Shown: piece by piece, positions 23,827-40,171 of the stretch
How positions within the stretch are numbered: the first letter of the stretch is position 1
Layout: each line of letters begins with the position of its first letter
DNA from: Bacteroidota bacterium
GTDB taxonomy: Bacteria; Bacteroidota; Bacteroidia; AKYH767-A; OLB10
Assembly: GCA_024643795.1 (NCBI GenBank)
Contig: JAHEMF010000025.1
Span: 1-40,284, forward strand
Direction: 5' to 3'
Length of the DNA: 40,284 nucleotides
Made by a program: the position numbers and the translations under genes
The notes under the pieces: model-generated
Database searches by the model: none
Told to the model about the DNA's origin: nothing
The model's input: only the letters and a program-made list of their open reading frames with translations

Positions 23827-25653
23827 ATGAAAAAAATTACTTCACTGCTTGTCATCTTCTTTACTATTATGATCACGGATGCCAGTTCACAAGGCACATG
23901 GACACAGATCGCAAACTTTGGCGGCGGTTCAGCTACCGAAGCAAGAGCTTTTGGTATAGGTGACTTTGGCTATGTAGGTGCTGCCACACCCGATTTTTGG
24001 CAATATGATCCGTTAACGGATACCTGGACGCAAAAGGCCGCATTCATAGGAACACAACGCAACAGTGCAGTTGGGTTTTCAATTGGCACTAAAGGGTATT
24101 TCGGTACCGGAGGTAACCTGAACGACTTTTATGAATATGATCAGGCCACCAACACATGGACACAAAAAGCAAATTTCGGTGGCACAGCACGCGAAGGAGC
24201 TGTTGGATGTGCAACAAACGGAAAAGGTTATCTGGGTACCGGAGGTTCTTATAAAAAGGATTGGTGGGAATATGATCCTGTAACCGACTTCTGGACGCAA
24301 AAAGCTGATCTTACCGGACCAACAAGATACCATGGAGGGTCATTTGCAATAAATGGTTTGTGTTATGTGTCAACCGGTTTTAATGGTAGCTTTTATAACG
24401 ACTTATGGGAATATAACCCGGCTACAAATATCTGGACCGCCAAAGCACCGTTACCGGGACCCACACGCGATCGTCCGGTTGGGTTAGCAGTCAATGGTAA
24501 AGGATATATCATTACAGGATGGACTGGTAGTACTGCATTAAATGATGCTTGGGAATATGACCCTGTAGCTAATATGTGGAGTGTTATGCCTCCTATGCCG
24601 GGTGCTGCACGATATAATGCCTGTGGCTTTGTGGCCGGAAGTGCATTATATGTTGGAGTAGGATATGCAGGAGGAGCAGTAGCCGACTTTTATAAATATG
24701 CGCCTGCCTGTGCAGCACAGTTCACTCATCAGGATCCCTCTTGCTACGGAACTTGCAACGGAATTGCAACAGTCAGCTTTCCTGCTCCGGGTCCGGGAGT
24801 AAGCTATGCATGGTCAACAGGTGCTACTACACAAACAATTAATGCAATTTGTGCGGGAACCTATACAGTAACGGTTACTGACTCTGCCGGATGTACATCC
24901 ATTAATAATTTAATTATTGACCAACCGGATTCTATGGAGGTGGCACCTAATTATGTAAGTCCCACTTGCTATGGTGATAGTACCGGAGTAATTTGTATTC
25001 AAATAACAGGTGGCACACAACCCATTATATCTTATATGTGGTCAAACGGAGCTACTGCTAATTGTATTCAGGGGGTCGCAGGTGGTAGTTATCAGGTAAG
25101 TGTTACTGATAATTCAGGATGTGATCAAACTTTTCCATTGGTGCTTACGCAACCTGCTCAGATACAACTCTCATTTTTTGTGTTGGATGCATCCTGTTCT
25201 ACCTGTCCTAATGGAGTTGCCAGCGTAAATGTAAATGGTGGCATATCACCCCTTACTTACAATTGGTCTAACGGTTCTAACCAGCAGATTCAAAGTAACC
25301 TCCTTCCGGGAGTTTATTCGGTTTGTGTTACCGATAGTAATCAGTGCGTGCAGTGCGACAGCGTGGTTGTGAGTTTTACATCATCACTCCAAGATGATGG
25401 AGAAATTGTTAACCTTAATCTTGCTCCTAATCCAACGATGAACCAATTCACAATAACAGGAAATTTGCTCTGGAACAGCCTTGAGGTTGTTGAGTTGATT
25501 GATTTAAAGGGATTGATAATAACACCGGAGTTTGTGATCCAAAAGAATTCATGTCTTGTGGTGATGCCTGAAATTGCCAGTGGAGTATATGTGGTCAGAC
25601 TCATCACTGCGGATCGTTCTTTTATAACGAGGGTTGTGAAGTATAATGAATAA
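23827..25653 (+). CDS. Secreted Kelch/SprB-repeat protein with T9SS C-terminal sorting signal
   Basis: 608 aa. Signal peptide (about 1-21), then about six Kelch repeats (about 23-290; recurring GYVGxG, (W/Y)EYDP-T--WTQKA and R--A--F-ING patterns), which should form a beta-propeller. Three SprB-like repeats follow (about 306-366, 381-443, 456-515; each with (Y/F)-WS-GAT, I-------G-Y-V-VTD--GC). The end (about 530-608) is a type A T9SS sorting domain (LNLAPNPTMNQFTITG, then SGVYVVRLIT and ITRVVKYNE). It should cross the outer membrane by the type IX system and lose this tail. Role: surface or extracellular adhesin, or binding protein; no catalytic motif seen. Confidence 0.88.
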   Translation: MKKITSLLVIFFTIMITDASSQGTWTQIANFGGGSATEARAFGIGDFGYVGAATPDFWQYDPLTDTWTQKAAFIGTQRNSAVGFSIGTKGYFGTGGNLNDFYEYDQATNTWTQKANFGGTAREGAVGCATNGKGYLGTGGSYKKDWWEYDPVTDFWTQKADLTGPTRYHGGSFAINGLCYVSTGFNGSFYNDLWEYNPATNIWTAKAPLPGPTRDRPVGLAVNGKGYIITGWTGSTALNDAWEYDPVANMWSVMPPMPGAARYNACGFVAGSALYVGVGYAGGAVADFYKYAPACAAQFTHQDPSCYGTCNGIATVSFPAPGPGVSYAWSTGATTQTINAICAGTYTVTVTDSAGCTSINNLIIDQPDSMEVAPNYVSPTCYGDSTGVICIQITGGTQPIISYMWSNGATANCIQGVAGGSYQVSVTDNSGCDQTFPLVLTQPAQIQLSFFVLDASCSTCPNGVASVNVNGGISPLTYNWSNGSNQQIQSNLLPGVYSVCVTDSNQCVQCDSVVVSFTSSLQDDGEIVNLNLAPNPTMNQFTITGNLLWNSLEVVELIDLKGLIITPEFVIQKNSCLVVMPEIASGVYVVRLITADRSFITRVVKYNE

Positions 25654-25714: not shown

Positions 25715-25753
25715 TTAACAATATCATAACATTTCTTAAACTAATTGTTAATA
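25715..25753 (+). promoter_or_regulatory. PHO-box-like 11-bp repeat array before the orphan wHTH gene
   Basis: Four hexamers at 11-bp phase: TTAACA (25715), ATAACA (25726), TAAACT (25737, or TTAAAC one base earlier) and TTAATA (25748). The last starts 15 bp before the -7 element TAAGTTTG at 25763. Confidence 0.6.
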
Positions 25754-25762
25754 TCATACCTA

Positions 25763-25770
25763 TAAGTTTG
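25763..25770 (+). promoter_or_regulatory. TAnnTTTG -7 element of the orphan wHTH gene
   Basis: TAAGTTTG is an exact match and places the start of transcription about 20 nt before the ATG at 25796. Confidence 0.6.
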
Positions 25771-25795: not shown

Positions 25796-26188
25796 ATGGT
25801 TTTGATATCAAAAAAATTTGCACTAGATGATCACCCTGAAACGTTGAATTCGGGGGATGGTCCTGCCGATCCAACATCAGATACCAATGATAAGTCCGTA
25901 ATTAAAATAGACAACGATCTTGTTATAAACCTCACTTCCTATTCGGTATCGTACAAAGGCAACCACATCTCTTTTCCTAAAAAAGAATTCGAATTGCTTT
26001 GGTTGTTGGCTACAAATCCATTTAAAGTATTTCGACGAGATGAGATTTTACAACACGTCTGGGGTGAAGATTATAGACCCAAAGATTCACGCTCTCTGGA
26101 TGTTCACATCCGCATGATCCGTAAAAAGTTGAATGAACAATATATTACCACCATCAGAGGAGTAGGTTATAAGCTTGTAAAGGTTTAA
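25796..26188 (+). CDS. Orphan PhoB/OmpR-type winged-helix DNA-binding protein without receiver domain
   Basis: 130 aa. Residues 1-35 are an acidic, unstructured-looking tail. Residues 36-130 are a complete OmpR/PhoB C-terminal DNA-binding domain: FPKKEFELLWLLATNP, KVFRRDEILQHVWGEDY, the recognition-helix region SLDVHIRMIRKKLN and the wing TTIRGVGYKLVKV. It is clearly homologous to the C-terminal half of the response regulator at 31262 (shared KEFELL, KVF-RDEI, WG-D, DVHIR-IR-KL, TI-GVGYK). There is no Asp-phosphorylation receiver, so it should not be switched by a kinase in the usual way. Its promoter carries a four-box array like PHO boxes, suggesting self-control or control by the regulator 5 kb away. 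Confidence 0.85.
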   Translation: MVLISKKFALDDHPETLNSGDGPADPTSDTNDKSVIKIDNDLVINLTSYSVSYKGNHISFPKKEFELLWLLATNPFKVFRRDEILQHVWGEDYRPKDSRSLDVHIRMIRKKLNEQYITTIRGVGYKLVKV

Positions 26189-26377: not shown

Positions 26378-26779
26378 ATGGATCTGGAAATCAAAGATGA
26401 ACAAACGTTGAGCGAAATAAAAGCCGCATTTAATGAGATGTTCCCGTTACTAAAGCTTGAATTTTTTAAAAAAGGACATGTTCAGGGTCAACCGAACGCT
26501 AAAGCTGACATGATTACTGATGATCCTACCATTGGTGAGATCAGAAAGTCTAAAAATGAGGGCGACTTATTGATCGGCGGGTTTATCACTGTAGGTGAAC
26601 TGGAAAGAGCTTTCCGCGACAGGTATGGGTTAAATGTTCAGGTTTTTCGTAAGTCGGGAATGGTTTGGCTTGAAACAACAACAACCGATTCATTAACACT
26701 TAGCGAACAGAACAGGATTGCGGAAGAAAAACGTAAACCGGTGGATGCACCCAAACCGGGTGATATTGATTATGATTGA
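26378..26779 (+). CDS. Conserved hypothetical protein, 133 aa
   Basis: I cannot assign a function. It is a soluble protein without signal peptide or membrane segment: an acidic N-terminal helix (DEQTLSEIKAAFNEMFPLLK), a compact middle domain (LEFFKKGHVQGQP, IGGFITVGELERAFRDRYGL, VFRKSGMVWLETTTT) and a charged, Pro/Asp-rich C-terminal tail (EEKRKPVDAPKPGDIDYD). It is joined to trxA by 5 bp, so the two are almost certainly co-translated, which hints at a redox-related or thioredoxin-linked job. The long structured leader may regulate both. Confidence 0.7.
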   Translation: MDLEIKDEQTLSEIKAAFNEMFPLLKLEFFKKGHVQGQPNAKADMITDDPTIGEIRKSKNEGDLLIGGFITVGELERAFRDRYGLNVQVFRKSGMVWLETTTTDSLTLSEQNRIAEEKRKPVDAPKPGDIDYD

Positions 26780-31208: not shown

Positions 31209-31236
31209 TTAACATTAATTTAACTTTAAAGGTTTG
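31209..31236 (+). promoter_or_regulatory. PHO-box-like array before the response regulator
   Basis: TTAACA (31209) and TTAACT (31220) are 11 bp apart. The next 11-bp position (31231, GGTTTG) is degenerate but begins 15 bp before the -7 element TACTTTTG at 31246, the same phase as at the other arrays. Confidence 0.5.
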
Positions 31237-31245
31237 TAGCTGTGG

Positions 31246-31253
31246 TACTTTTG
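31246..31253 (+). promoter_or_regulatory. TAnnTTTG -7 element of the response regulator
   Basis: TACTTTTG is followed by CACC and an ATG at 31258 that opens an 8-codon frame ending at 31284, out of frame with the regulator. Confidence 0.6.
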
Positions 31254-31261
31254 CACCATGA

Positions 31262-31957
31262 ATGAATTACCGGATGAATCCTGATAAGATCAAAATACTT
31301 TTAGTAGATGATGAACCCGATATTGTGGAGTTCATGGAATATAACCTGGTAAAAGAGGGGTATGAGGTGATAACATCAAATAATGGTGCCGATGCCATTA
31401 AACTTGCCGAACAGAATAAACCTCAGCTTATCATTCTTGATATTATGATGCCGGTCATGGATGGTATAGAAACTTGCCGGGTGCTTCGATCCAAATCAGA
31501 ATTTCAAAATACTCTCATCGCTTTTTTAACAGCACGCAATGAGGATTATTCGCAGATTGCCGGCTTTGATGTAGGTGCTGATGATTATATCAACAAACCT
31601 ATCAAACCTAGAGTGTTGGTGAGTAGAATAAGAGCTATACTCAGAAGGCTGAATGGGCAGGCGAAAGAAGAAAATCTGGTTAGAATAGGTGACCTGGAAA
31701 TTGACCGAGAACAATATAATGTGAGAAAAAATGGTAAAGATCTTACTTTACCACGAAAGGAATTTGAATTGCTATCATTATTGATCTCCAAACCCGGGAA
31801 AGTATTTACCCGTGATGAGATCATGAATAGAATATGGGGTAACGACATCATTGTTGGCGATCGCACCATAGACGTGCATATCCGCAAGATCCGCGAGAAG
31901 CTGGGCGATGAGTACATCAAAACCATTAAAGGAGTAGGGTATAAATTCGACTCCTGA
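31262..31957 (+). CDS. PhoB/PhoP-type response regulator
   Basis: 231 aa; an ATG at 31274 gives the more usual start NPDKIKILLVDDEPDI and would remove four residues. The receiver domain has the acidic pair DDE, the phospho-acceptor Asp60 in LIILDIMMP, the Thr in FLTAR and Lys in NKPIKP. The C-terminal domain (about 135-231) is an OmpR/PhoB winged helix (RKEFELLSLLIS, TIDVHIRKIREKLG, IKTIKGVGYKF). The kinase gene follows at 59 bp, and sixA, ppk and ppx lie downstream, which supports a phosphate-starvation (PhoB/PhoP) role. The promoter has PHO-like repeats, so autoregulation is likely. Confidence 0.93.
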   Translation: MNYRMNPDKIKILLVDDEPDIVEFMEYNLVKEGYEVITSNNGADAIKLAEQNKPQLIILDIMMPVMDGIETCRVLRSKSEFQNTLIAFLTARNEDYSQIAGFDVGADDYINKPIKPRVLVSRIRAILRRLNGQAKEENLVRIGDLEIDREQYNVRKNGKDLTLPRKEFELLSLLISKPGKVFTRDEIMNRIWGNDIIVGDRTIDVHIRKIREKLGDEYIKTIKGVGYKFDS

Positions 31958-31984
31958 ATCCTCAGGTTTTCCTCATATTTAGGT

Positions 31985-31992
31985 TAATTTTG
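31985..31992 (+). promoter_or_regulatory. Secondary TAnnTTTG -7 element before the kinase gene
   Basis: TAATTTTG lies between the regulator and kinase genes, 24 nt upstream of the GTG at 32017, and may give the kinase extra transcription. Confidence 0.4.
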
Positions 31993-32016
31993 CGTTAAAT
32001 CTCATTTGATCGTACA

Positions 32017-33066
32017 GTGAAGATCTTTCCACCAAAGAAAATTGTTTTTTATACCAGCCTGCTTATTGCAGTTATTTCCTTTGGTATCATCCTTTTATCA
32101 CTTTTATTAAATAATGTTCAGCATGCAGTTATCATTTCCCTTATTTCTGCAACAACTCTTTTTATAGCTGTTTTGATTTCCGTTGGCGTTGCATTGGATA
32201 AATTCTTTTATTCTAATATTCGATTGATCTATAGGAATATTATTCAGCTTCGTTCACACGGACTGAAAAAAGTTGAAAGACAGATCAGGGATGAAAAAGT
32301 TCTGGGTGAGATAAACAGGTTACTCATAGAATGGGAAAAAGATAATCAGGAGGAGATAGGTCACCTGAAAGAACTGGAAGAATACAGGAGAGAGTTTCTG
32401 GGTAATGTATCACATGAACTCAAGACGCCGATCTTCACGGTTCAAGGTTATGTACACACCTTATTGGATGGAGGTATTGAAGACCAGGACATCAATCTGC
32501 TGTATTTAAAAAAGGCAGGAAAAAGTATTGACAGACTCATATCCATTGTAGATGATCTTGAGTCTATATCAAAACTTGAAGCCGGAGAAATGATACTTGA
32601 GAACCGGACCTTTGACTTCACCGAACTTGCACAGGAAGTGATTGAATCACTTGAACTGCGCGCAGCAGAAAGAAATATAACACTTGAGGTAGATGAAGAA
32701 AGCCTTTACCCGCACTATGTTTTTGCAGACAAGGACCGTATAAGACAGGTGCTCGATAATTTGTTGGTAAACTCCATAAAGTATGGTAAGCAAGGTGGTA
32801 AAACAAAAATTTCTATCGAAGAAGGAAATGATACCATCACTGTGGATATAAATGATGATGGGATAGGTATCTCCAAACAACATCTTGGGCGTTTATTTGA
32901 AAGGTTTTACCGGGTAGATAAAAGCAGGTCAAGAGAGCAGGGTGGTACCGGACTTGGATTAGCAATCGTAAAACATATCCTTGAGGCACATAAACAAAAT
33001 ATAACCGTTGAAAGTGAGCCCGGAAAAGGGACATTATTCACTTTCACCTTAAGAAAAAGTAAATAA
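32017..33066 (+). CDS. PhoR-like sensor histidine kinase
   Basis: 349 aa, starting at a GTG. Two membrane helices (about 10-30 and 36-58) are separated by only about six residues, so there is no periplasmic sensor domain. A short linker is followed by the HisKA domain (EFLGNVSHELKTPIFTVQGY, His133) and the ATPase domain (DRIRQVLDNLLVNSIKYG N box, DDGIGI G1, LFERFYRVD F box, GGTGLGLAIVKHI G2). It pairs with the regulator upstream. The layout resembles PhoR or intramembrane-sensing kinases, which take their signal from a membrane partner (such as the Pst/PhoU system). Its stop abuts the sixA start. Confidence 0.93.
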   Translation: MKIFPPKKIVFYTSLLIAVISFGIILLSLLLNNVQHAVIISLISATTLFIAVLISVGVALDKFFYSNIRLIYRNIIQLRSHGLKKVERQIRDEKVLGEINRLLIEWEKDNQEEIGHLKELEEYRREFLGNVSHELKTPIFTVQGYVHTLLDGGIEDQDINLLYLKKAGKSIDRLISIVDDLESISKLEAGEMILENRTFDFTELAQEVIESLELRAAERNITLEVDEESLYPHYVFADKDRIRQVLDNLLVNSIKYGKQGGKTKISIEEGNDTITVDINDDGIGISKQHLGRLFERFYRVDKSRSREQGGTGLGLAIVKHILEAHKQNITVESEPGKGTLFTFTLRKSK

Positions 33067-33558
33067 ATGAAACACGATAAAAGAACGCTTTATCTGGTCA
33101 GGCATGCCAAAGCATCCAGAAGTATAGGAGGGCTTACAGATATTGACCGGCCATTGGCAGAGTTGGGTACGGAAGAGGCCTATCGCGTTGCCGAAGAGTT
33201 GTTCAATAAACAAGAGATCCCTGAATTGATCATTTCGAGTACTGCTGTGAGAGCGTTTTCAACAGCACTTATATTCAGACGTGTGTTGCAGGTTCCTATA
33301 ACCATGTTCAAGGTAACAGACAGGCTATATGAGATTGATATCAATGATCTTGTTGAATTTATTGCAGATCTTGATGATCGCTATCATTCCATTATGCTGG
33401 TCGGTCATAACCCATCATTCAGCATGCTGGCATCAAAACTCCAGAATGGAATAAGCCATGTTTCCACCGCAGGAGTAGTTAAATTTGAATTTGATGTAGA
33501 GAAATGGAGACATGCAAGCTATATAAATGCTGAAAACACTCTCTTTCTGGTACCATGA
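33067..33558 (+). CDS. SixA-family histidine phosphatase
   Basis: 163 aa. A phosphoglycerate-mutase-fold enzyme: RHA with catalytic His13 in LYLVRHAKAS, DRPLAELGTEEA, SSTAVRAFSTALI, and the second His in MLVGHNPSFS. E. coli SixA dephosphorylates phospho-histidine proteins (ArcB and the PTS NPr). Here it begins one base after the kinase stop, so a histidine-phosphatase function on this kinase or on polyphosphate enzymes is plausible but inferred only from context. Confidence 0.9.
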   Translation: MKHDKRTLYLVRHAKASRSIGGLTDIDRPLAELGTEEAYRVAEELFNKQEIPELIISSTAVRAFSTALIFRRVLQVPITMFKVTDRLYEIDINDLVEFIADLDDRYHSIMLVGHNPSFSMLASKLQNGISHVSTAGVVKFEFDVEKWRHASYINAENTLFLVP

Positions 33559-33564
33559 TCATTG

Positions 33565-33610
33565 TTAAGTGAATATTAAATCTTAACTTTAAATGTCGTA
33601 GGTACCTTAT
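33565..33610 (+). promoter_or_regulatory. Weak PHO-box-like repeats and -7-like element before the H1-like gene
   Basis: TTAAGT (33565) and TTAAAT (33576) are 11 bp apart, followed off-phase by TTAACTTTAAA (33583), an 11-mer also found before the response regulator (31220). TACCTTAT (33603) is a partial -7 match, one base off the phase of the other arrays. Confidence 0.35.
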
Positions 33611-33655
33611 TATTTATAAATTACGCTTCTAACTTGTATAGAATTTCATTATAGC

Positions 33656-34018
33656 ATGAAAAAAGTTTTACGTAAATCCATACAAACTGATATTGAGTCA
33701 GAGCTTAGTGCTTTCTTTTATCAGAAAGACCCTATGGTATCGGGTCTGATGACCAAGCATATCACAGCGGCTGCTAAATTACTTTCTAAAAAATTCATCA
33801 AGCTTGCTACCAAGCCTGACAAGCTTGTAAAACAAGGAAAAGTTTATAGCAAACTCAGAAAAGGTGCTGCAAAATCTGCTTCTCAAAAGACCACAACTAC
33901 AAAGGCAGGGACATCAGCTAAAAAAAAGGTTTCCGGAACTACGGCAACAAAAAAGAAAGCAGGAGCAAGACGTAAAGTTAATACAAGGTCTGCCAAGGCA
34001 GCAAAAAAAACCACCTAA
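33656..34018 (+). CDS. Histone-H1-like lysine-rich protein
   Basis: 120 aa. Residues 1-65 are predicted helical (MKKVLRKSIQTDIESELSAF, HITAAAKLLSKKFIKLAT); residues 66-120 are a Lys/Thr/Ala/Ser tail (TTTTKAGTSAKKKVSGTTAT, KKKAGARR) typical of bacterial H1-like proteins. Such tails bind polyanions: DNA, or possibly polyphosphate. No signal peptide, so it is cytoplasmic. It sits between sixA (97 bp) and ppk (41 bp), in the polyphosphate gene set. I infer nucleoid or polyphosphate-granule association; I recognise no specific family. Confidence 0.7.
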   Translation: MKKVLRKSIQTDIESELSAFFYQKDPMVSGLMTKHITAAAKLLSKKFIKLATKPDKLVKQGKVYSKLRKGAAKSASQKTTTTKAGTSAKKKVSGTTATKKKAGARRKVNTRSAKAAKKTT

Positions 34019-34059
34019 TACCTTTTCAGCCCTTTCCAAAAATTTCCTAACGTTAGTAT

Positions 34060-36120
34060 ATGTCGAAGAAAAAGAATGCTCTTGTAAATAGGGAATTGAG
34101 TTGGCTTTCATTCAACGAAAGAGTTTTACAAGAAGCCGAAGATGCGAGTGTTCCTTTGATAGAACGACTTAGGTTTCTGGGTATTTTTTCAAATAACAGA
34201 GATGAATTTTTTAGAGTAAGAGTTGCTACAGTAAAAAGATTGTCGCGTTTCAAAAAGAAACTCGATATTCTGCAAGGCTATCAACCTACCGATTTGCTGA
34301 ACAAGATCCAAAAAGTGATCATTCAACAACAAAACAGGTTTGAGAGGATATATACACAGGTAAAAAAAGAACTGGCTAACAACCGGATATTTCTTATTGA
34401 CGAAAAGCAGATCACTCAGAAGCAGGGTGAATATGTCAGGAGTTATTTTAAAGATGTGGTAAGGCCTCACCTTTTCCCGATCATACTGGACAATGCCAAG
34501 TCGTTCCCTTACCTGAAAGATAAGTCCATTTATTTGGTCATTAAAATGTACAAAGAAAAGACCGGTGGAAGGGCAAGGTTTGCTCTGGTAGAGGTGCCTA
34601 CCCGTGTGGTCTCTAGATTTGTGATTTTGCCACAAGAAAAAGACCAGAAGTTTGTAATGTTACTTGATGATGTGATCAGGTATAACCTCGATGCAATTTT
34701 CTCAATTTTCGAATTTGATCAAATAGAAGCATATATAATTAAGATCACCAGAGATGCCGAGCTGGATCTTGATGACGATGTTTCAAAAAGTTATCTGGAA
34801 AAGATCTCAAAATCGCTTAAGAATCGCAAAAAAGGTAGTCCGGTAAGATTAACCTATGATGCAGCAATATCCACTGATATTATGGATATGCTGATCTCAA
34901 AAATGAAATTCAGAAAGCAGGATAACCTTATCCCCGGAGGTCGTTATCATAACTTTAAAGATTTTATCAATTTCCCCGATCTTGGTGCTTCAAACCTCAG
35001 GTATCGAAAGAACGAACCCTTACAACATCCTGACCTGATCAATCAGGCTTCAATTTTTCCGGTCATTAAAGCTAAAGATGTTTTACTGTTCTTTCCATAT
35101 CATTCATACAACTACATTTTAGATCTGTTGCGCGAAGCCTCTATCGATCCTAAGGTAGAATCGATCAAGATCACAATGTACCGTATGGCAAAGGAGTCGA
35201 TCATCGTAAACTCACTCATAAATGCTATTAAGAATGGTAAGTCGGTAACGGTTGTAGTGGAATTACAGGCGCGCTTTGATGAAGAAGCCAATATTAATTG
35301 GGCTAACCAGCTGCAGGAGGAAGGAGCTACAGTTATATTTGGTGTACCGGGGTTAAAAGTTCATTCAAAGTTATTTGTGATCTCACGCCGTGAAAAGACC
35401 AAGCTGGTAAATTATGTCCACACAGGTACCGGTAATTTCAATGAAGAAACTGCGAAGATCTACAGTGATATCAGCCTGCTAACCACGGATACTCGTATCT
35501 CAATAGAGGTGATGAAGTTGTTTAACTTTTACGCCAATAATTACAAAACCGGAACCTATCGTAATTTACTTGTGGCTCCCTGGTCGATGAGGAACAGATT
35601 TCATCAACTTATAAATCAGGAGATTCAAAATGCCAAAAATGGAAAACCTGCCTATATCTATGCCAAACTCAACAGTGTGGTGGATGAAGAGATCATCGAA
35701 AAGCTATATCTGGCAAGTAGAGCAGGGGTTAAGATCAAAATGATTGTAAGAGGTATTTGCTCACTGGTGCCCGGAGTGAAAAGAATGAGTGAGAATATTG
35801 AAGTCATCAGCATTGTAGATAAGTTTCTGGAACATGCCAGGGTGTTTGTATTTTGTAATGACGGTAATGAGAAATACTATATTTCTTCAGCCGACTGGAT
35901 GTCGCGTAATCTGGATCACCGGTCCGAAGCAGCTATTCCTATTTATGACCCCGGTTTACAGTCAGATCTGATGAACTTTTTAAGTATCCAGTTCAAGGAC
36001 AATGCAAAGGCCAGATTAATAGATTCCAAGCAATCCAATACTTATGTCAAGGATAACCGATTGGTAAAATCAAGGTCTCAGATCGAATTTTATCGCTATT
36101 TGCAGCGAAAAAATCCTTGA
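34060..36120 (+). CDS. ppk1: Polyphosphate kinase 1
   Basis: 686 aa, the standard length. It polymerises the gamma-phosphate of ATP into polyphosphate, reversibly. The N-terminal domain starts LVNRELSWLSFNERVLQEAE, and the phospholipase-D-like core has the phospho-histidine motif YVHTGTGNFNEETAKIYSDI with His454, and the second catalytic segment WMSRNLDHRSEAAIPI with His620; conserved ATP-contacting regions (NRDEFFRVRVA, LQARFDEEANINWA) are intact. ppx follows at 31 bp, so synthesis and degradation are co-encoded with the two-component system. Confidence 0.95.
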   Translation: MSKKKNALVNRELSWLSFNERVLQEAEDASVPLIERLRFLGIFSNNRDEFFRVRVATVKRLSRFKKKLDILQGYQPTDLLNKIQKVIIQQQNRFERIYTQVKKELANNRIFLIDEKQITQKQGEYVRSYFKDVVRPHLFPIILDNAKSFPYLKDKSIYLVIKMYKEKTGGRARFALVEVPTRVVSRFVILPQEKDQKFVMLLDDVIRYNLDAIFSIFEFDQIEAYIIKITRDAELDLDDDVSKSYLEKISKSLKNRKKGSPVRLTYDAAISTDIMDMLISKMKFRKQDNLIPGGRYHNFKDFINFPDLGASNLRYRKNEPLQHPDLINQASIFPVIKAKDVLLFFPYHSYNYILDLLREASIDPKVESIKITMYRMAKESIIVNSLINAIKNGKSVTVVVELQARFDEEANINWANQLQEEGATVIFGVPGLKVHSKLFVISRREKTKLVNYVHTGTGNFNEETAKIYSDISLLTTDTRISIEVMKLFNFYANNYKTGTYRNLLVAPWSMRNRFHQLINQEIQNAKNGKPAYIYAKLNSVVDEEIIEKLYLASRAGVKIKMIVRGICSLVPGVKRMSENIEVISIVDKFLEHARVFVFCNDGNEKYYISSADWMSRNLDHRSEAAIPIYDPGLQSDLMNFLSIQFKDNAKARLIDSKQSNTYVKDNRLVKSRSQIEFYRYLQRKNP

Positions 36121-36151
36121 TTAGTTATATTTATCAACTAATTTATTTTTA

Positions 36152-37057
36152 GTGGGGAAAGATAATATCATAAAATTAGCCTCAGTTGATATCGGATCCA
36201 ATGCGATCAGGTTGATGCTTTGTAATGTTTATGAAGGCGATGATGAGCCTCTTTTCAAGAAGGTTGAACTTATCAGGTTTCCACTCAGGCTGGGTGAAGA
36301 CAGTTTTCTTAAAGGATTCATAACTGATGAAACTTTAGCCAGACTTTGCAATGTGATGGGAGCTTTTCGGTTGCTCATTGAAGCTTTTGGAGCGGAACAA
36401 TATCGGGTTTGTGCCACCTCTGCCATGCGGGAAGCGGCTAACAGACACGAGGTGATAAAAAAGGTAAAAGATCAAACAGGAATTTTGATTGAGATAATTG
36501 AAGGGAAACTGGAAGCTGAGATCATTTATTCTAATCACATTGCCGAACATCTTGAAACAAGTAATTCATATCTGTATATTGATGTGGGTGGCGGAAGCAC
36601 GGAATTGACCCTTTTCTCGAATGGTAAAACAAAATCTTCCAACTCATTCAATATTGGTACCATCAGAATGTTGCATCATAGGGTCACCAAAGATCAATGG
36701 AACGCTTTTAAAAATGAGGTTCATGATATCTGTGAGGGTTATGATCCTGTGGTGGCTATTGGTTCAGGTGGTAATATCAATAAGATCTTTAAGATGACCG
36801 GTAAAAAAGATTATAAATATCTTACCCAAGCCAAGCTAAAAGATAGCTATAACTATGTTAAAGGGTTTACGCTTGAGCAGCGTATCAAGGAATTGAAACT
36901 TAATCCTGATCGCGCAGATGTTATCATACCCGCTTATCGCATTTTTCTGGCCATCATGAAATCTGCCAGAATAGACAAGATAATGATACCCCAGATCGGA
37001 CTGTCTGATGGGATCATTCATCAGCTATATGAGAGTAGCAGTGCAAAAGTGATTTGA
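36152..37057 (+). CDS. Exopolyphosphatase / GppA-type phosphatase
   Basis: 301 aa, starting at GTG. This is the two-lobe ASKHA catalytic part: phosphate-1 loop LASVDIGSNAIRLM, ATSAMREAANRHEVI, phosphate-2 loop YIDVGGGSTELTLF, and GSGGNINKIF. It lacks the HD-like C-terminal domains of the longer E. coli Ppx, which is usual for Bacteroidota. It removes terminal phosphates from polyphosphate, or the gamma-phosphate of pppGpp. It is the last gene of the group before the TonB receptor. Confidence 0.92.
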   Translation: MGKDNIIKLASVDIGSNAIRLMLCNVYEGDDEPLFKKVELIRFPLRLGEDSFLKGFITDETLARLCNVMGAFRLLIEAFGAEQYRVCATSAMREAANRHEVIKKVKDQTGILIEIIEGKLEAEIIYSNHIAEHLETSNSYLYIDVGGGSTELTLFSNGKTKSSNSFNIGTIRMLHHRVTKDQWNAFKNEVHDICEGYDPVVAIGSGGNINKIFKMTGKKDYKYLTQAKLKDSYNYVKGFTLEQRIKELKLNPDRADVIIPAYRIFLAIMKSARIDKIMIPQIGLSDGIIHQLYESSSAKVI

Positions 37058-37171: not shown

Positions 37172-37210
37172 TTAACATCTAATTAACAGGATGGTAACAA
37201 GTAATTAATG
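37172..37210 (+). promoter_or_regulatory. PHO-box-like four-repeat array before the TonB receptor
   Basis: TTAACA (37172), TTAACA (37183), GTAACA (37194) and TTAATG (37205) are spaced exactly 11 bp. A -7-like TTTTTTTG begins at 37220, 15 bp after the last hexamer starts. An additional near-repeat (11-bp period, TTAATTCAATG/TTAATTCAACT) lies at 37076-37097. This is the clearest array in the window. Confidence 0.65.
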
Positions 37211-37279: not shown

Positions 37280-40108
37280 ATGAGATACCATTTAAATACA
37301 AAGGTCTTCTTACTTATATTCTTATCAATTATCAATGTTGATCTGGCATGGTCGCAAACCGGTAAGATCAGCGGTAATATCACTAACGCAAGTGGAACGG
37401 AGCCGCTTATTGGAGCCAGTGTGGTCATTGATGGTACTACACAAGGTAGTGTTACCGATCTGGATGGTAATTATACAATCACAGCAATAGCTCCCGGTGT
37501 GTATAAGGTTAATGTGAGCTTCATAGGATTTGTAACATACTCAGTAGAGGAAGTGGTGGTAAAAGCAGATCAAACGAGTACTCTCAATGGCAAGTTAAAA
37601 GAGAATGTGGAGATGCTTCAAGGGGCTGATATTGTAGCACAGCGTACCACCAATACAGAGAATGCGGTTTTAATGGAAGTTAAACAAGCCGAACAGGTTG
37701 TAAATGGTATTTCGAGTCAGCAAATAGCACGTTCGCAGGATCGTACTGCGGGTGAAGTGATCCGGAGAGTTCCCGGCGTTACGGTTATGAACAACGGTTT
37801 TGTGCTTATCAGAGGATTGAATGAGAGATACAACACCACACTGTTTAATGGAACCTTAGCACCAAGCATGGAGTCGGATAAGAAAGCGTTTGCATTTGAT
37901 CTTATCCCAAGTCAGATGCTCGACAGAATAATGGTTTACAAGACCGGTGCACCGGAATTACCGGGTGAATTTGCGGGTGGTGTGATCAAGATCTACACCA
38001 AAAATATATCAGATGAAGATAACCTGAGTGTGGGATATAGTACCGGATTTTTGACAAATACAACTTTCAACGACTTTTATCAGGCACCAAAAGGTGGTAC
38101 TGATTGGTTAGGTAAGGATGATGGCACCCGTACGTTGCCTACTGCATTTCCCAAAAGTCTTTTTGATGTTCAGGATCAGCAGCAGCTGGCAGATCTTGGA
38201 AAATCACTACCCAATGCATGGACCACTGCTAAGATTCAGGCCGGACCTGATCAGAAATTCAACATGTCGTTCATAAAGAATTTCCAGGCCGGACAAACAA
38301 AGGTTGGTAATGTAACCTCCATCAAATACGATTTCACACACGAGTCTTTTGAAGGAGATAACTATGGATACAATGCATACAATGAAGTAGCCGGTACCAG
38401 TGATACCATATACTCTTATAAAGATGGTGTGTACAATGAAAAAGTGAGACTCTCTCTCATTCACAACTGGTCGTTCATTGTGAACCCTAATACCAAATTC
38501 GAGTTCCGAAATTTCTTTAATCAGCAAGGTAATAACCAGTCTATCATCAGATCAGGTGTAAACATCGAAGAAGGAAGTTATGTTCAGAATTATGCATACC
38601 GCTACGAAGAGCGGACGATATATTCAGGACAGTTGAGCGGATCACATGATCTTAATGCGCAACAAAGTAATATTAGCTGGACAGCCGGTTACTCCTATAC
38701 ACATTCCGCGGAGCCGGATTTCAGACGCATACGTACTGTAAAGGATGTCAATGATACCACATCAGATCCTTATCAGGTTATCATTGCACCAACGGCCTCA
38801 ACGCTGGATGCCGGACGTTTTTATTCAGACCTGACTGAAAGCACTGTTACAGCAGCCCTTGACTTTGAGCATAAACTCAAGTCGAGAGATGAAGTACTGA
38901 TCCCGAAGATCAGAGCAGGGTTTTATACAGAGCACAAAGACCGGTCATTTAGTGCACGATGGATGTCGTATAAAAAATCTAAGATTGCTCAGTTTGACAA
39001 TACACTGATTTATCTCCCGTTGGATGAGATCTTCAGTGCTTCACATATCAACGACAGTACAGGTTTTAAACTTGAAGAAGGAACCAATCCAAGCGACCAC
39101 TATGATGCAAGTAATACATTGCTTGCCGGCTATCTAGGTACTACTGTACCTTTAACAGACAGGTGGAATGTATCAGGTGGAGTAAGGGTTGAGTATAACA
39201 GACAGGTTTTGACCAGTGCTACCTTCACAGGAGCAACCATTGAAGTTGATAATCCCATCCTTAGCATTTTGCCATCTGTAAACGTTTCATTTGCAACTGC
39301 TGAAAAAAGTTTGATCAGGTTCGCATGGTCTATGTCGGTTAACCGTCCTGAGTTTCGTGAGCTGGCGCCATTCTCATACTATGACTTTACATTCAACAAC
39401 ATCCTGATAGGTAACAGTGAACTGGAAACACCATCTATCCAGAACTTCGATCTCAGGTATGAGATCTACCCAAGAGTTAATGAGCAGATCAGCATAGCTG
39501 CATTCTACAAGAATTTCACCAACCCAATTGAAATGTTCTTTGTACCCGGAACCGGTTCAGGTGGTACACGAAATTTCACCTTCGGAAATGCACAGTCTGC
39601 TTCCAGTATTGGATTGGAATTTGAAGTGAGGAAATCTTTTTCAAGTATTCGTGAAACAGGAATTCTTAGCAAAACAGGTGTAACCTTTAATGTAGCCTGG
39701 ATCGAAAGTAATGTTGACTTAGGATCTTCTGCTGTAGGGCAGAGCTCAGAAAGGCCAATGATGGGCCAGTCGCCTTATATAATCAACACAGGAATTTTTT
39801 ATATAGATAACGACCATAAAGTACAGGTGAATGCACTATACAATGTTATAGGCAAGAGATTATTTGCTGTTGGCACATTCGGCACACCCGATATTTATTT
39901 CATGCCACGGCATTCGGTAGACCTCACAGTATCCAAAGGATTTGGAAAGCACTTGGTAGTTAAGGCAGGGGTACAGGATCTACTGGCTCAGGATATGCTA
40001 TATGTTCAGGATTCAAATGAAGATGGTATGATCACATCCTCTGACGATGAGATCATCCGCATGCGAAAAGGAGCATATTATACAATGGGGTTATCCTTCA
40101 ACTTCTAA
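37280..40108 (+). CDS. TonB-dependent outer-membrane receptor with CarboxypepD-reg-like domain
   Basis: 942 aa. Signal peptide (about 1-26, ending LAWSQ), a carboxypeptidase-regulatory-like Ig domain (about 28-110; GKISGNITNASGTEPLIGAS, SVTDLDGNYTI), a plug domain (about 120-235; RTAGEVIRRVPGVTVMNNGF, FVLIRGLNERYNTTLFNG, AFDLIPSQMLDRIMVYKTGA, PGEFAGGVIKIYTK) and a 22-stranded-type barrel with TonB-receptor features and terminal Phe (YTMGLSFNF). It should import a large or scarce nutrient across the outer membrane using the Ton complex. The upstream PHO-like array and phosphate-linked neighbours suggest an organophosphate or phosphate-containing substrate, but this is inference. No SusD-like gene follows within the visible sequence. 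Confidence 0.9.
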   Translation: MRYHLNTKVFLLIFLSIINVDLAWSQTGKISGNITNASGTEPLIGASVVIDGTTQGSVTDLDGNYTITAIAPGVYKVNVSFIGFVTYSVEEVVVKADQTSTLNGKLKENVEMLQGADIVAQRTTNTENAVLMEVKQAEQVVNGISSQQIARSQDRTAGEVIRRVPGVTVMNNGFVLIRGLNERYNTTLFNGTLAPSMESDKKAFAFDLIPSQMLDRIMVYKTGAPELPGEFAGGVIKIYTKNISDEDNLSVGYSTGFLTNTTFNDFYQAPKGGTDWLGKDDGTRTLPTAFPKSLFDVQDQQQLADLGKSLPNAWTTAKIQAGPDQKFNMSFIKNFQAGQTKVGNVTSIKYDFTHESFEGDNYGYNAYNEVAGTSDTIYSYKDGVYNEKVRLSLIHNWSFIVNPNTKFEFRNFFNQQGNNQSIIRSGVNIEEGSYVQNYAYRYEERTIYSGQLSGSHDLNAQQSNISWTAGYSYTHSAEPDFRRIRTVKDVNDTTSDPYQVIIAPTASTLDAGRFYSDLTESTVTAALDFEHKLKSRDEVLIPKIRAGFYTEHKDRSFSARWMSYKKSKIAQFDNTLIYLPLDEIFSASHINDSTGFKLEEGTNPSDHYDASNTLLAGYLGTTVPLTDRWNVSGGVRVEYNRQVLTSATFTGATIEVDNPILSILPSVNVSFATAEKSLIRFAWSMSVNRPEFRELAPFSYYDFTFNNILIGNSELETPSIQNFDLRYEIYPRVNEQISIAAFYKNFTNPIEMFFVPGTGSGGTRNFTFGNAQSASSIGLEFEVRKSFSSIRETGILSKTGVTFNVAWIESNVDLGSSAVGQSSERPMMGQSPYIINTGIFYIDNDHKVQVNALYNVIGKRLFAVGTFGTPDIYFMPRHSVDLTVSKGFGKHLVVKAGVQDLLAQDMLYVQDSNEDGMITSSDDEIIRMRKGAYYTMGLSFNF

Positions 40109-40115
40109 GAATAGT

Positions 40116-40171
40116 TTAACCTAATCACCACCTTAAATTAACAATGACTTAAACCGCAGTGTATTTCTTTG
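40116..40171 (+). promoter_or_regulatory. PHO-box-like array and -7-like element before the last gene
   Basis: TTAACC (40116), TTAACA (40138) and TTAAAC (40149) fall on an 11-bp grid (the position at 40127 is degenerate). TTTCTTTG begins at 40164, 15 bp after the last hexamer starts, as at the other three arrays. Confidence 0.5.

Follow-up and report, generated by a model that had tools for sequence, protein, structure and literature searches.

A receiver-less PhoB-like protein in a Pho island of a Bacteroidota genome is a candidate competitor or feedback brake of PhoB

What could a PhoB-type DNA-binding protein do that has no receiver domain and is encoded near a PhoB with an intact receiver? 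This question is raised by a gene for a protein of 130 amino acids in a contig sequence of 40,284 nucleotides from a Bacteroidota bacterium, which as a whole is referred to as the window. A first-pass annotation had described the OmpR/PhoB winged helix as the only domain of this protein, and the Pfam search agrees: Trans_reg_C (PF00486) is the sole match (residues 56–127, 86.6 bits vs. a cut-off of 26.2), which makes the protein a member of the OmpR/PhoB-type DNA-binding domain (DBD) family, and a receiver (Response_reg), which in a two-component response regulator carries the phosphorylatable Asp, is absent even at E ≤ 10. The gene and its parts are as follows:

25796..26188, + strand: receiver-less PhoB-like protein, 130 amino acids (intact open reading frame, orthologues, AlphaFold2)
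25796..25900, + strand: N-terminal extension of about 35 residues, disordered and not conserved (pLDDT about 46)
25961..26176, + strand: OmpR/PhoB winged-helix DNA-binding domain, Trans_reg_C (Pfam; fold match to the PhoB effector domain)

AlphaFold2 predicted a complete OmpR/PhoB winged helix-turn-helix with a pLDDT above 90 over most of residues 41–130 and a disordered N-terminus (residues 1–30), and the PhoB entries 1gxq and 1gxp are among the top PDB matches to the predicted fold (rmsd 1.7–1.9 Å). The proposed match to the DNA-binding half of the response regulator at 31262 was borne out with 50% identity over residues 32–127. As to the 35-residue acidic tail that had also been described, additional residues do exist, but these about 38 residues are N-terminal and, with 7 acidic vs. 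4 basic side chains, only mildly acidic, and the idea of a conserved acidic tail was rejected because the N-termini of the orthologues do not align. By its scores (69 vs. 270 bits for NF053854 and 63.7 vs. 296 for TIGR02154) and its place outside the PhoBs in a DBD tree (93/84) the protein does not class as a PhoB orthologue. It is also not a ToxR-, CadC-, HilA- or SARP-like protein, as Pfam shows Trans_reg_C only, and PADLOC returned no match. The window genome has five Trans_reg_C places, and the four besides the 25796 gene sit in frames of full response-regulator length.

The Pho-related neighbourhood of the gene in the window comprises the following genes:

31262..31957, + strand: PhoB-type response regulator with intact receiver (top NCBIfam matches TIGR02154, 224 bits, and NF053854, 219 bits, both below cut-off)
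32017..33066, + strand: PhoR-type histidine kinase, the presumed partner of the 31262 regulator (HisKA and HATPase_c; PnpS/PhoR models among the best matches, below cut-off)
33067..37057, + strand: genes for a SixA-like phosphatase (SixA the best NCBIfam match, below cut-off), a lysine-rich protein, and polyphosphate kinase-like and Ppx/GppA-like proteins (the latter two named by eye)
37280..40108, + strand: TonB-dependent receptor, a putative member of the Pho regulon (Pfam TonB_dep_Rec_b-barrel and Plug)

The order from the SixA-like to the Ppx-like gene, including the lysine-rich and the polyphosphate kinase-like gene, is shared by two genomes of the same family, G014 and G009. The lysine-rich protein (33656–34018, + strand), located between the SixA-like and polyphosphate kinase-like genes, is histone H1-like, 120 amino acids long and without NCBIfam match. 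Two other genes lie near the 25796 gene: a Kelch/SprB protein that carries a type IX secretion sorting domain is encoded just upstream (23827–25653, + strand), and a 133-amino-acid protein without Pfam or NCBIfam match is encoded at 26378–26779 (+ strand) and has equally long homologues next to pstS in G014 and G009.

A survey of relatives, as suggested in the first-pass annotation, revealed receiver-less orthologues in three further genomes, each next to pst or phoB and preceded by a similar promoter array, and in addition a wider Pho-linked family and a stand-alone receiver. The orthologues of G014 and G009 are 67–68% identical over the DBD and their genes are arranged tail-to-tail with pstA of pstSCA. 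The contig of G014 continues, like the window, with the genes for PhoB, PhoR, SixA, Ppk and Ppx, which G009 has in unchanged order on another contig. The third orthologue, in a Bacteroidia metagenome-assembled genome of another family (G122, locus L057), has 141 residues and its gene overlaps convergently by 4 bp with that of a full-length PhoB. No other orthologue of comparable score was present in 395 genomes of the class, and none besides that of the window in 395 genomes of the phylum; a short homologue at the start of G007:C256 was left out as a probable contig-edge truncation, since its match starts at base 18. In G014 (L007:1130-1310) and G009 (L008) the orthologous gene is closely preceded by short imperfect repeats (TTCACTGATTACTTTTCACTGCTAACTG-like).

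Further PhoB-like genes with an absent or degenerate receiver turned up, for the most part in phoB, pst or ppk/ppx loci, and many of them are preceded by such arrays (the names in these gene runs were read by eye, except for PBP/pstS, receiver and DBD genes). The receiver-less gene of G032 heads a porin-like/pstSCAB-phoU run, that of G029 is embedded in the order porin-like – pstS – winged helix-turn-helix – stand-alone receiver – pstCAB – phoU, and that of G056 lies beside phoB and a stand-alone receiver. G035 has two copies, one after ppk/ppx and a second elsewhere. In several f3 genomes a stand-alone receiver is followed by a pseudo-receiver regulator and in some of these by a pstS-like gene, and in Flavobacteriales a pseudo-receiver regulator is located within a phoB/TonB locus. 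A DBD tree of 84 rows and 92 columns unites 21 receiver-defective rows in one clade apart from the PhoBs (93/84), in which the 130-amino-acid protein groups with degenerate-receiver paralogues. Within this clade the window gene belongs to a receiver-less subclade with G014, G009, L057 and G032 (99/77), which adjoins two members from one genus, G056 with a lost receiver and G166 with a degenerate one. G029 and L204 are outliers of the tree, and the support for the family with G029 included (22 rows, without L204) is low (60/0). A recent duplication of the local PhoB is disfavoured by the tree, with no formal rejection in the AU test, in which the f1 short proteins were grouped with the PhoBs of the same genome (p 0.069) or with all f1 PhoBs (p 0.221). 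Taking the clade, its low support with G029 and the AU test together, an ancient paralogue family is favoured but not proven.

These data also bear on the reading that the gene is a decayed pseudogene of PhoB, which we regard as very improbable. The receiver has been lost, the AU test leaves a grouping with PhoBs of the same genome formally unrejected, and the L057 relative keeps what looks like a receiver remnant: its N-terminus (KYLIINDGDNITEKLKSALHKEGYRIFVSDEE) resembles by eye the first third of a receiver (β1-α1-β2), which suggests from the sequence that this gene arose by internal deletion. Pfam gave no receiver match at E ≤ 10 in the N-terminus of the window, G014, G009 or L057 protein. 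Decay is contradicted by the intact reading frame in four genomes, by a dN/dS between the G014 and G009 genes of 0.06 overall and 0.012 in the DBD, and by the conservation of the promoter array and of family-specific residues.

The promoter was analyzed using a scan for TTAACA boxes with an 11-bp period and 20 shuffles of the whole window as control, which together with a sequence match downstream of the first array yielded these elements:

25715..25753, + strand: four-box, 11-bp-period Pho-box-like array (TTAACA/ATAACA/TAAACT/TTAATA) upstream of the receiver-less gene (4-box score 18.8)
25763..25770, + strand: TAAGTTTG, a match to TAnnTTTG directly downstream of this array
31209..31225, + strand: two strong array boxes before phoB (TTAACATTAATTTAACT), with TACTTTTG at 31246
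37172..37210, + strand: four-box array before the TonB-dependent receptor (score 22.5, the highest of the window; similar in G014 and G009)

The array that had been noticed before the 25796 gene is real: its boxes start at 25715, 25726, 25737 and 25748, it begins 81 bp upstream of the start codon and ranks second among the arrays of the window, with a score above the maximum of 15.3 in the shuffles. A weaker array (40116–40154, + strand) between the TonB receptor and a gene cut by the contig end scores 15.25, which equals the shuffle maximum, and on the minus strand two TTAAC boxes form an array in the gap that separates the phoB stop from the phoR start (31983–31998). As the consensus was picked after viewing the window, tests outside of it weigh more. 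Array boxes were found before pstS on contig C67 of the window genome, before pstS, phoB and the TonB receptor gene of G014, and before the receiver-less genes of G014, G009, L057 and G032. The position relative to the start is −75 to −81 for the receiver-less gene in four genomes, −78 for the G032 homologue and −56 to −67 for the pseudo-receiver members of Flavobacteriales. The −7 element of Bacteroidota has the sequence TAnnTTTG, and a match is present downstream of the array, 27–33 bp before the start codon, in the receiver-less genes of the window, G014, G009, L057 and G032. Ranked against a background of 1291 upstream regions that are themselves rich in Pho genes, the single promoters of the window, L057, G032 and six Flavobacteriales members reach the top 0.8–2.6%, whereas those of G014 and G009 are only within the top 11% by 3-box score. 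The two-box pattern alone was rejected as proof of a regulon, since TTAACN6TTAAC occurs 16 times in the genome and 16 times in a reversed control. Of these 16 matches three lie within the window, one before pstS and another before a Porin_O_P gene; it is the placement of the arrays (phoB, pstS, TonB receptor, Porin_O_P) and not the two-box count that carries the information. The promoter array, conserved across the orthologues, makes the 25796 gene a candidate member of the Pho regulon.

To what extent the protein could read the same sites as PhoB was addressed by comparing the residues of 23 family members with those of 111 canonical PhoB DBDs in E. coli PhoB numbering (sequence checked vs. 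1gxp/3t72). All 23 members retain the DNA-contact framework (equivalents of R193, D196, V197, R203, T217, G220 and Y223). At the positions that contact bases in E. coli PhoB (T194, V197, R201 and R219; PMC3264566) the 130-amino-acid protein has S, V, M and R and the local PhoB T, V, K and K. Among these, V197 is shared and T194 to S is conservative, but M replaces K at the R201 position, which is K or R in 111/111 PhoBs and M in the window protein and its three closest orthologues. From these residues we infer a binding preference that overlaps with that of the local PhoB but is probably not identical, and the Met may change affinity or preference. The exchange at R201, together with the variation at this position across the receiver-less members, could also mean that the protein binds other sites and controls a different regulon, its Pho linkage consisting merely in being a Pho target itself. 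With conservative residues at the equivalents of T194, V197 and R219 (S/V/R) and genomic neighbours that are consistently Pho genes, we consider this distinctly unlikely.

A different picture emerged for the residues W184, G185, V190 and D192, which contact the polymerase in E. coli PhoB (PMC3348028). The V190 equivalent is V or I in 111/111 PhoBs and in 0/23 family members, the G185 equivalent is G in 110/111 PhoBs vs. 5/23 family members, and six of nine receiver-less members, including the window protein, have a one-residue insertion in the α2-α3 loop. In PhoBs the identity of this loop to the PhoB consensus is 0.66, and it drops to 0.38 for the window protein, 0.19 for the receiver-less and 0.08 for the pseudo-receiver members, whereas recognition helix and wing stay at about 0.7. 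Kept DNA-contact residues in combination with a lost polymerase contact are the pattern expected of an anti-activator, and with W184 and G185 equivalents retained but V190 lost the window protein does not show the full set of residues of a PhoB-like activator. An always-on activator, another role proposed in the first-pass annotation, is disfavoured because the polymerase-contacting loop has diverged. Such a constitutive or feed-forward activator would bind unphosphorylated, contact the polymerase differently and sustain or extend the Pho response at some promoters. We judge this unlikely, with some points in its favour: removal of the receiver frees the effector domain for DNA binding in E. 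coli (PMC4415409), the −7 element follows shortly after the arrays, which are thus in an activator-like position, and the retained W184 and, in the window protein, G185 may preserve some polymerase contact. Loss of the E. coli-type contact need not abolish activation, since the Bacteroidota polymerase may be contacted differently.

The best of the proposed roles is that of a competitor or feedback repressor, as the protein probably reads the same arrays, though with base contacts that are not identical, and its own gene sits behind one. On this reading the gene encodes a PhoB paralogue that has lost its receiver domain, and phosphorylated PhoB would switch it on via its own Pho-box array. The protein would then bind Pho-box arrays through its intact winged helix without phosphorylation. 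As it has no PhoB-like polymerase-contact loop, it would occupy the sites without recruiting RNA polymerase and could therefore act as a starvation-induced competitor or feedback brake on PhoB. Induction by PhoB, array binding and the sign of the effect are inferred here, whereas the receiver-less architecture, the conserved gene and array, the Pho neighbourhoods, the purifying selection, the retained DNA-contact framework and the loss of polymerase-contact residues are seen in the sequences themselves. Overall, we see about an even chance that the protein is a PhoB-induced, phosphorylation-independent Pho-box binder which acts mainly as competitor or brake. This is in line with the constitutive DNA binding of the isolated PhoB effector domain of E. 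coli (Ellison and McCleary, 2000, as covered in the review PMC4415409) and with the coupled negative autoregulation of E. coli PhoB (PMC6194859). On the other hand, DNA occupancy might be too weak to compete without a receiver dimer.

Furthermore, the pst contig of the window genome encodes a stand-alone receiver of 127 amino acids with intact active-site residues (G000:C67:7554-7937; L174:7554-7937). Stand-alone receivers, with their active-site residues kept, form one clade (16 rows, 100/100), in which this copy groups with those of G014 and G009 (100/96), and this clade of Bacteroidia is Pho-linked. In G041 a second, degenerate stand-alone receiver-like protein (L204:7430-7822) is encoded right after a stand-alone receiver and before the SixA-like gene. 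The co-occurrence of the stand-alone receiver leaves room for a split response regulator, in which the receiver, phosphorylated by PhoR or another kinase, would control the DNA-binding protein in trans. Within the family the receiver is present in 3/3 genomes with the receiver-less gene vs. 1/21 others (p 0.002), and the order-wide table (12, 2, 3, 25) gives p 3e-6; this table was compiled manually, and its p value is uncorrected for phylogeny, which acts as a confounder. The partner genes are adjacent in G029 and G056, and in several f3 genomes the receiver lies beside a pseudo-receiver regulator. Nevertheless, we think such a split rather unlikely: the window genome, G014 and G009 have the two genes on separate contigs, either gene also occurs without the other (the receiver in G005, G027 and G030, the DNA-binding partner in G032 and G035), no receiver-receiver interface is left, and the receiver's own promoter in the window genome has only a weak array. 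The wider idea that Bacteroidia repeatedly split a PhoB-like regulator of the Pho regulon into two proteins that work together in trans, one a lone receiver and the other a DNA-binding protein without receiver, seems similarly doubtful.

Among the papers listed in an open-access library we found no description of a Bacteroidota Pho-box motif or of a receiver-less PhoB. If the brake model is true, the protein would be a natural and conserved Pho regulator freed from phosphorylation, and also a natural test of the roles of the PhoB halves, with DNA-contact residues kept and polymerase-contact residues lost. To check the sequence-level prediction of a starvation-induced anti-activator, a single protein and three promoters would suffice. 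In addition, the data point to an unnamed Pho-linked paralogue family and a co-occurring stand-alone receiver in Bacteroidia.

The protein shares with PhoB the winged-helix fold, the DNA-contact framework, the 11-bp direct-repeat arrays and the Pho gene neighbourhood, but differs in the missing receiver, the diverged polymerase-contact loop, the Met at the R201 position and a score of 69 bits against the 270-bit cut-off for Bacteroidota PhoB. An OmpR-type winged helix that is not attached to a receiver is also known from ToxR, CadC, HilA and the SARPs, which carry membrane, TPR or BTAD domains, whereas the window protein has nothing but a short disordered N-terminus besides its winged helix and is encoded in a Pho island. 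ChxR, GlnR, RitR and CmrT are atypical or pseudo-receiver regulators of the OmpR family that act independently of phosphorylation (PMC12632262, PMC12548384). The degenerate receivers of the window protein's relatives resemble this group, and CmrT is likewise encoded beside a canonical partner regulator (PMC12632262, PMC12548384), but in the window protein the receiver is wholly gone, the canonical neighbour is PhoB and a separate stand-alone receiver co-occurs. The autoregulation of E. coli PhoB is comparable as a brake on the Pho response via DNA binding at a Pho promoter; there, however, PhoB itself acts at a weak −10 site (PMC6194859), whereas here a dedicated receiver-less paralogue is proposed.
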